Source of the DNA: Xenophilus azovorans DSM 13620
GTDB lineage: Bacteria > Pseudomonadota > Gammaproteobacteria > Burkholderiales > Burkholderiaceae_C
NCBI RefSeq assembly: GCF_000745855.1
Contig: NZ_KN050766.1
Span: forward strand, 279,567 to 343,566
Direction of reading: 5' to 3'
DNA length: 64,000 bases
In this document: positions 11,062 to 11,156 of the stretch, piece by piece
How positions within the stretch are numbered: position 1 is the first letter of the stretch
How the letters are laid out: each line of letters begins with the position of its first letter
The notes under the pieces: model-generated
The model's input: the letters and a program-made list of their open reading frames with translations, nothing else
Told to the model about the DNA's origin: nothing
Database searches by the model: none
Translations under genes and position numbers: made by a program

Positions 11062-11070
11062 AATGAAATT

Positions 11071-11156
11071 GCCCCCACGCTCATCGCTTCGCGTATCGCT
11101 GCCCCCCGAGGGGGCGCGTCAGTGCCTTCGGGCGGCCGGGCGCCACTGACATGACC
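11071..11156 (+). repeat. Intergenic GC-rich repeat, copy 1 (zipA/ligA junction)
   Basis: An 86-bp element that differs at only two positions from 44922-45007, 34 kb away. It contains the hairpin GCCCCC-CGA-GGGGGC and the motif CCTTCGGGCGGCCGGGCG, and identity extends into the ATGACC at the start of the next gene. An open frame of 28 codons (11063-11149) begins one base after the zipA stop and ends one base before the ligA ATG, bridging the junction. The peptide reads in a different frame from that of copy 2, so its sequence is probably not what is conserved. Confidence 0.85.

Follow-up and report, generated by a model that had tools for sequence, protein, structure and literature searches.

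A dispersed, mobile-looking repeat of Xenophilus azovorans occupies stop/start junctions of operon genes and carries mini-frames positioned for translational coupling

Repeat copies in the window

The window analyzed here, a 64,000-nucleotide stretch of the genome of Xenophilus azovorans DSM 13620, hosts four copies of a short repeat. Copy 1 (c1, loop type A; positions 11071-11156, plus strand) is 86 bp long with a GC content of 74% and is flanked by zipA (9949-11061) and ligA (11151-13178), which we identified through the Pfam ZipA_C and DNA ligase families. Copy 2 (c2; 44922-45007, plus strand) lies between an acyl-CoA dehydrogenase gene (43087-44916) and an ORF of 73 amino acids (45002-45223) with no Pfam match. 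Copy 3 (c3; 25404-25480, minus strand) has loop type B and the arms TTTCATC/GATGAAA, and its neighbors on the same strand are msrB (25487-25909) and the gene for septation protein A (24868-25407; Pfam SelR and IspA, respectively). The fourth copy is diverged (47886-47951, plus strand; 19 bits with nhmmer, with an exact match to the core) and is read in frame (PTPAASPAALPPEGAPA..) within an AidB-like acyl-CoA dehydrogenase ORF (47553-49283), where the best AidB_N stretch stops at residue 111, the point at which the repeat begins. Rfam covariance models returned 0 matches in the window at the gathering score.

A sequence-only reading of this DNA had described c1 and c2 as near-identical elements between co-directional genes, with a diverged relative at the position of c3. 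Our recomputation confirmed that c1 and c2 are identical at 84 of 86 positions, the neighboring gene calls agree with their placement, and c3 aligns across the same core (25409-25478, minus strand). The proposal that the spacer is open over 28-29 codons in all three copies was equally borne out. The c1 mini-ORF (11063-11149, plus strand) opens with an ATG 1 nt past the zipA stop, runs for 28 codons and ends with a TGA 1 nt before the ligA ATG. The c2 mini-ORF (44916-45005, plus strand; 29 codons) overlaps the upstream stop as TGATG and the downstream start as ATGA, and that of c3 (25404-25490, minus strand; 28 codons) forms ATGA overlaps with both the msrB stop and the septation protein A start. 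The mini-frame ends were said to fall within one base of the neighboring genes, which is correct for c1, whereas c2 on its far side and c3 at either end overlap the neighboring gene by 4 nt. As also claimed, c1 and c2 use different frames.

Distribution of copies in the genome and its relatives

A BLAST search with c1 returned 41 matches in its own genome, and the core pattern of 19 bases was found there at 35 exact, 17 one-mismatch and 4 two-mismatch places. With up to three mismatches the core pattern occurred at 100 places, compared with 9 for its reversed control. A profile search over the fetched own-genome loci identified 59 distinct copies, a census based on BLAST, the 19-base pattern and incidental matches, with most three-mismatch places left unfetched. 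Among 14 additional own-genome regions, 6 were without any copy. Because the copies of relatives come largely from the highest ranks of a list ordered by similarity to c1, only the own-genome set comes near an unbiased census. BLAST matches were detectable in 23 of 40 genomes (own genome included), all within one family and in 9 of 26 genera, and six plasmid records of Paraburkholderia, Burkholderia, Variovorax and Acidovorax carry the repeat. We rejected a phage origin, as a search of 50,697 phage records at an E-value of 1e-5 was negative.

We classified the 59 copies using gene calls from a codon-usage caller whose training set was 27 ORFs of the window. Overall, 20 copies lie in sense orientation at exact co-directional stop-to-start junctions, 31 are hosted inside ORFs that they leave unbroken (12 sense and 19 antisense) and 8 fall into neither class. 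The junction class demands sense orientation by definition, and antisense copies at tight junctions (L011, L055 and L056) are counted among these last 8. According to the gene map of the window, the junction-compatible share of all site-and-strand choices is 0.45%, and therefore the binomial P-value for 20 of 59 copies is about 3e-32. Junction placement beyond chance, which the earlier reading had asked to be checked, is thus clearly detectable. Most copies nevertheless lie outside junctions, as that reading would have counted against itself, but nearly all of these are inside ORFs rather than at random positions.

The two habitats differ in the copies that they host. Type A copies, defined by a loop with CGGGCGGCCGG, were found inside ORFs in 0 of 13 cases under the exact rule, and all 31 ORF copies count as type B, including a weak copy of 20 bits (L058) whose loop looks like type A. 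In addition, the antisense strand of the repeat is free of stops in 29 of the 31 ORF copies and in only 4 of the 20 junction copies. A GCTTG/GCTCG-type subfamily is represented by L055 (1257-1326) and L056 (1275-1344), which are antisense at stop/start junctions and have TGAGCG-type direct repeats on both sides.

In-frame copies were found on the minus strand of their loci in the ORFs of a valyl-tRNA synthetase, which from its sequence we take to be valS (L019, 1503-1572), of a biotin carboxylase (L017, 1500-1571) and of a class I (E and Q) tRNA synthetase (L053, 1286-1347). The repeat is absent from the valyl-tRNA synthetase gene in all 13 loci inspected in the genus, which are shorter by 72 nt (8 loci) or 81 nt (5 loci), both multiples of three. 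For the biotin carboxylase, alignment with the solved homologue 4rcn_A places query residues 280-314 between its residues 280 and 284. These two cases suggest that important proteins tolerate approximately 24-35 extra residues. The LPPEGA frame is read in all 11 sense ORF copies listed (of 12), and in most of them three frames are open.

Mini-frames close at the downstream start

We analyzed frame closure in 36 single-copy junctions, 20 from the own genome and 16 from relatives; this set omits tandem arrays, gaps longer than 120 nt, L004 and L086, as well as plasmid copies. The mini-ORF starts close to the upstream stop, most commonly at offsets of -4, -1 and +1 (12, 6 and 9 cases, respectively). 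The frame opened beside this stop closes between -6 and +4 nt of the downstream start in 33 of the 36 junctions, the exceptions being an in-frame fusion (L008), a late closure (L257) and an early one (L074). When only the 20 junction copies of the own genome are considered, there is one in-frame fusion to the downstream gene and one late closure. The 33 closed mini-frames are 26-33 codons long and read the core in all three phases (14, 13 and 6 cases), and 26 of them share an LPPEGA-type frame in the middle (hand count).

To compare frames, we read all three across the core of each copy. Proper closure is found for 33 of 35 used frames and for only 9 of 73 unused ones (P-value 3e-17, Fisher test, with copies treated as if unrelated), and the remaining unused frames mostly fuse with the downstream start or overrun it. 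Open mini-frames at coupling distance are therefore in excess of chance, and closure is not random. Taken with the reversed-pattern control and the junction enrichment, this comparison led us to reject chance or a GC artefact as the origin of the pattern. Tandem copies are present in L064, L075-L079, L082 and L083, and the units are linked through TGA-N-ATG in L075-L077, L079 and L082 but not in L064, L078 and L083. A Variovorax plasmid with an independent annotation shows the same order of stop, repeat and start.

The sequence-only reading also held that the repeat supplies the downstream start, and this is wrong, as the starts are present in relatives that are free of the repeat. Three relatives have the ligA start ATGACCCAGGAC in four loci that lack the repeat (L033, L034, L037 and L047), and the gene downstream of c2 begins with ATGACC in L179, L181 and L184. 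The only contribution of the repeat before the start is CACTGAC. Judging from these comparisons, the downstream start codon is ancestral and host-derived. We expected downstream starts to lack Shine-Dalgarno-like pairing, but found more of it than at the gene starts of the window (median energy of the 3' end against the anti-Shine-Dalgarno sequence of -5.6 and -4.0 kcal/mol, respectively). Since the downstream starts pair better than the gene starts of the window, coupling may be dispensable, and translation of the downstream gene could begin independently at the Shine-Dalgarno-like end.

Empty sites at orthologous junctions

We compared the orthologous junctions of other genomes for several copies. 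The c2 repeat is absent from all 11 inspected loci, each of which carries TGATG at the stop/start. An example of the empty site is TTCTGATGACC, and the filled site of the own genome reads TTCTGATGA, repeat, CACTGACATGACC. A fixed target duplication, one hallmark of MITEs, is not established, because the two flanks of c2 have only ATGA in common. None of the 13 loci inspected for c3 is filled; G004 (L217) offers a clean empty site with the ATGA overlap (GGCATGAAGCTGCTG, compared with GGCATGAAGCT, repeat, ATGAAACTGCTG in the window), and the remaining genomes have spacers of their own. Two copies of relatives gave similar results. At the L087 locus, 2 of 12 inspected junctions are filled, 4 are clean empty sites (own genome included; GACTGACATGGC, flank match CTGACATG) and 6 have other spacers, and at the L061 locus the corresponding numbers are 1, 4 and 9 of 14 (empty site CCTGACATGGCC, flank match TGACATG). 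The flanks match over 8 positions at L087, 8 with one difference at c3, 7 at L061 and 4 at c2, and no match was seen at valS.

These orthologous comparisons show c2, c3 and the copies at L087 and L061 to be insertions at stop/start junctions. The opposite possibility, of an ancestral spacer that has nothing to do with insertion, does not agree with the loci of c2 and c3. For c1, a profile search of 15 further ligA loci from 14 genomes of the genus was negative for the repeat; their legible spacers differ, so there is no clean empty site. Similarly, 80 named ligA loci (some of them partial) have no repeat near the ligA start, and one repeat lies elsewhere in L317. Spacers also vary among those listed for the L086 locus. 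At the junction of the L087 copy, where two relatives have the element, G005 has a different and longer GC-rich spacer (L093; CCCTCTCCCC..GGGGAGAGGG). In L190, the spacer 3' of the c2 ortholog bears a GGCTGAGCCTGTCGAAG / CTTCGACAGGCTCAG inverted repeat.

Copy-specific hairpin arms

One inner stem pair varies among the 59 own copies (G-C in 27, A-T in 22 and G-T in 1, with 9 unmatched by the search expression). The terminal arms are legible in 53 of the 59 copies and comprise 38 distinct arms. Within these 53 copies the two arms of the terminal stem pair at 0.79 of positions, compared with 0.49 (standard deviation 0.02) when arms are swapped between copies, a control that treats copies as if they were unrelated. 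The same trend is detectable when junction copies (0.89 and 0.50 swapped; 18 of 20 copies) and ORF copies (0.78 and 0.54 swapped; 27 of 31) are analyzed separately. Some arms are common to subfamilies, namely CACTGAC and CTTTTCATC/GATGAAAA. At the valyl-tRNA synthetase locus, CCGGG directly follows the same AAG codon in 4 of 13 relatives and not in the others, and the outer arm CCGGGGC of that copy may be host sequence.

The match of the inner arm to its partner could result from guide-like target choice, from palindrome correction after insertion or from selection on the RNA. A quite improbable version of the first is that the hypervariable arm of the terminal hairpin acts as a guide, with the landing site chosen by base-pairing with the target. 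The guide would be rewritten during insertion or later, perhaps through palindrome correction. This idea builds on the short stretch in each copy that is complementary to the arm adjoining its own right flank. The targets would be start-codon regions for type A and the GATGAAA subfamily, and codon runs for the ORF copies. If true, this would represent programmable target choice in an element of 86 bp.

Proposed explanation and alternatives

Insertion at stop/start junctions, the position of the insertions and the non-random closure of their frames are direct observations. On this basis, we consider it highly probable that the copies belong to a dispersed, non-autonomous and mobile-looking family of approximately 80-90 bp, whose members are mini-cistrons rich in hairpins that enter at start codons and keep coupling intact. 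We call it mobile because of the insertion polymorphism between genomes; the search for a transposase or other mobilizing enzyme for the repeat returned none, and mobilization would presumably occur in trans through some enzyme. In densely arranged operons the repeat would enter at gene start codons, usually in sense orientation, and the old start codon would remain on the left, now opening the mini-ORF. The sense frames of the repeat, which are largely stop-free, would lead to a stop at its end (CACTGAC in type A), followed immediately by the re-created start of the downstream gene. Having ended the upstream gene, a ribosome could thus re-initiate on the mini-ORF, end it and re-initiate on the downstream gene; we infer this coupling from the architecture, and the hairpins may also take part. 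A sister set with loop type B resides in frame inside ORFs. The earlier proposal of a mobile element that inserts between operon genes while keeping coupling is therefore largely supported, except that the start codon comes from the host and the family is not confined to junctions.

The same pattern could arise without any site preference, if the repeat inserted anywhere and selection purged all but the translation-sparing insertions, leaving junction copies in the right frame and in-frame ORF copies. Translation does continue in both habitats, and the excess of stop-free antisense strands among ORF copies also speaks for this view. On the other hand, non-coding spacers, which make up approximately 8% of the window, would then be the safest landing place, yet only 8 of 59 copies lie outside both classes. 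The concentration of 20 copies within so small a share of compatible sites, and their location at the ATG itself, also make this explanation rather unlikely. Selection may alternatively have kept the repeat as a structured RNA, such as a terminator, processing site or attenuator, with the mini-frame as a by-product of GC-rich, stop-poor sequence. The covarying inner stem and the loss of arm pairing after swapping are in line with this idea. However, stop-poverty alone cannot register the closing frame with the start, given the difference between used and unused frames; c1 folds no better than its shuffles (z +0.44), and 31 of the 59 copies reside in ORFs, 19 of them antisense. We give it little credence.

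Elements of the REP type or the IS200/IS605 type, which rely on a Y1 transposase, have ends where a strand pairs with the cleavage site beside a hairpin. The anatomy of the repeat resembles such an end, and so does its insertion 3' of a short motif with a variable or absent target duplication. Nonetheless, the number of Y1_Tnp genes does not track the repeat: the own genome has 1, G003 has none despite its 27 repeat matches, and repeat-free genomes of other families have up to 9. A profile search of L031 and L268-L297, the 31 Y1_Tnp loci retrieved, was likewise negative for the repeat. We regard membership in this group as improbable. Insertion at start codons with preserved coupling remains our preferred explanation, and the availability of both filled and empty sites allows direct tests of re-initiation and of how expression survives insertion. 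The copy-specific arms may bear on the choice of target.

Comparison with known repeats

The mycobacterial interspersed repetitive units (MIRUs) were reportedly described by Supply in 1997. As summarized in a later account, they are apparently mobile, enter at start codons and bring an ORF that is coupled to the gene at the site (PMC12548453). The Xenophilus repeat resembles them in architecture, as it too inserts at the start codon with an internal ORF that appears positioned for coupling. Start-codon insertion with coupling preserved is thus a strategy already known from MIRUs, which provide a direct precedent. In that account MIRUs are mycobacterial and have the -4 geometry, whereas our repeat belongs to a betaproteobacterium, uses several geometries (mostly -4, -1 and +1) and differs further in its strong palindromes, copy-specific self-complementary arms and second habitat inside ORFs. 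If our explanation is right, it would add to MIRUs a second lineage of repeats that enter operons by way of the translation machinery.

A closer counterpart may be the Beta-proteobacterial repeat element (BRE) of Bordetella and Comamonadaceae, whose description gives approximately 90 bp (75-91 in Bordetella), an average GC content of 69% and a tandem arrangement in variable number (PMC3110155). BREs are usually intergenic, but some share a few bases with the end of an ORF and others lie wholly within coding sequences (PMC3110155). The Xenophilus repeat matches them in size, GC content and dispersal through the genomes of one family and through plasmids, and also in its tandem loci and ORF-hosted copies. 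It is probably the same family, compared by description and not by letters. The BRE section of that paper proposes no function and is silent on mini-ORFs, a start-codon target, empty sites and arms (PMC3110155). The accessible literature on Acidovorax and Comamonadaceae repeats yielded nothing beyond BRE, and a dedicated search for start-codon repeats with coupling was without yield. Relative to what is known, the new features are the empty sites, the habitat inside ORFs and the terminal hairpin with arms that differ between copies yet pair. The kind of element is known, and the lineage, the two habitats and the arms differ; we therefore consider the Xenophilus repeat a variant.

The ORF copies recall the Rickettsia palindromic elements, described as palindromic repeats inserted in frame in unrelated genes (PMC10969869). 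The likeness considered here is one of habit, and in Xenophilus the same family also occupies operon junctions. Finally, two copies have a different surrounding on their right side. The right end of the copy at L378 (1433-1504), with the arms CTTTTCATC/GATGAAAA, runs into a GC-rich terminator-like hairpin instead of a gene start, and so does that of the copy at L381 (1453-1524), with a near variant of these arms.
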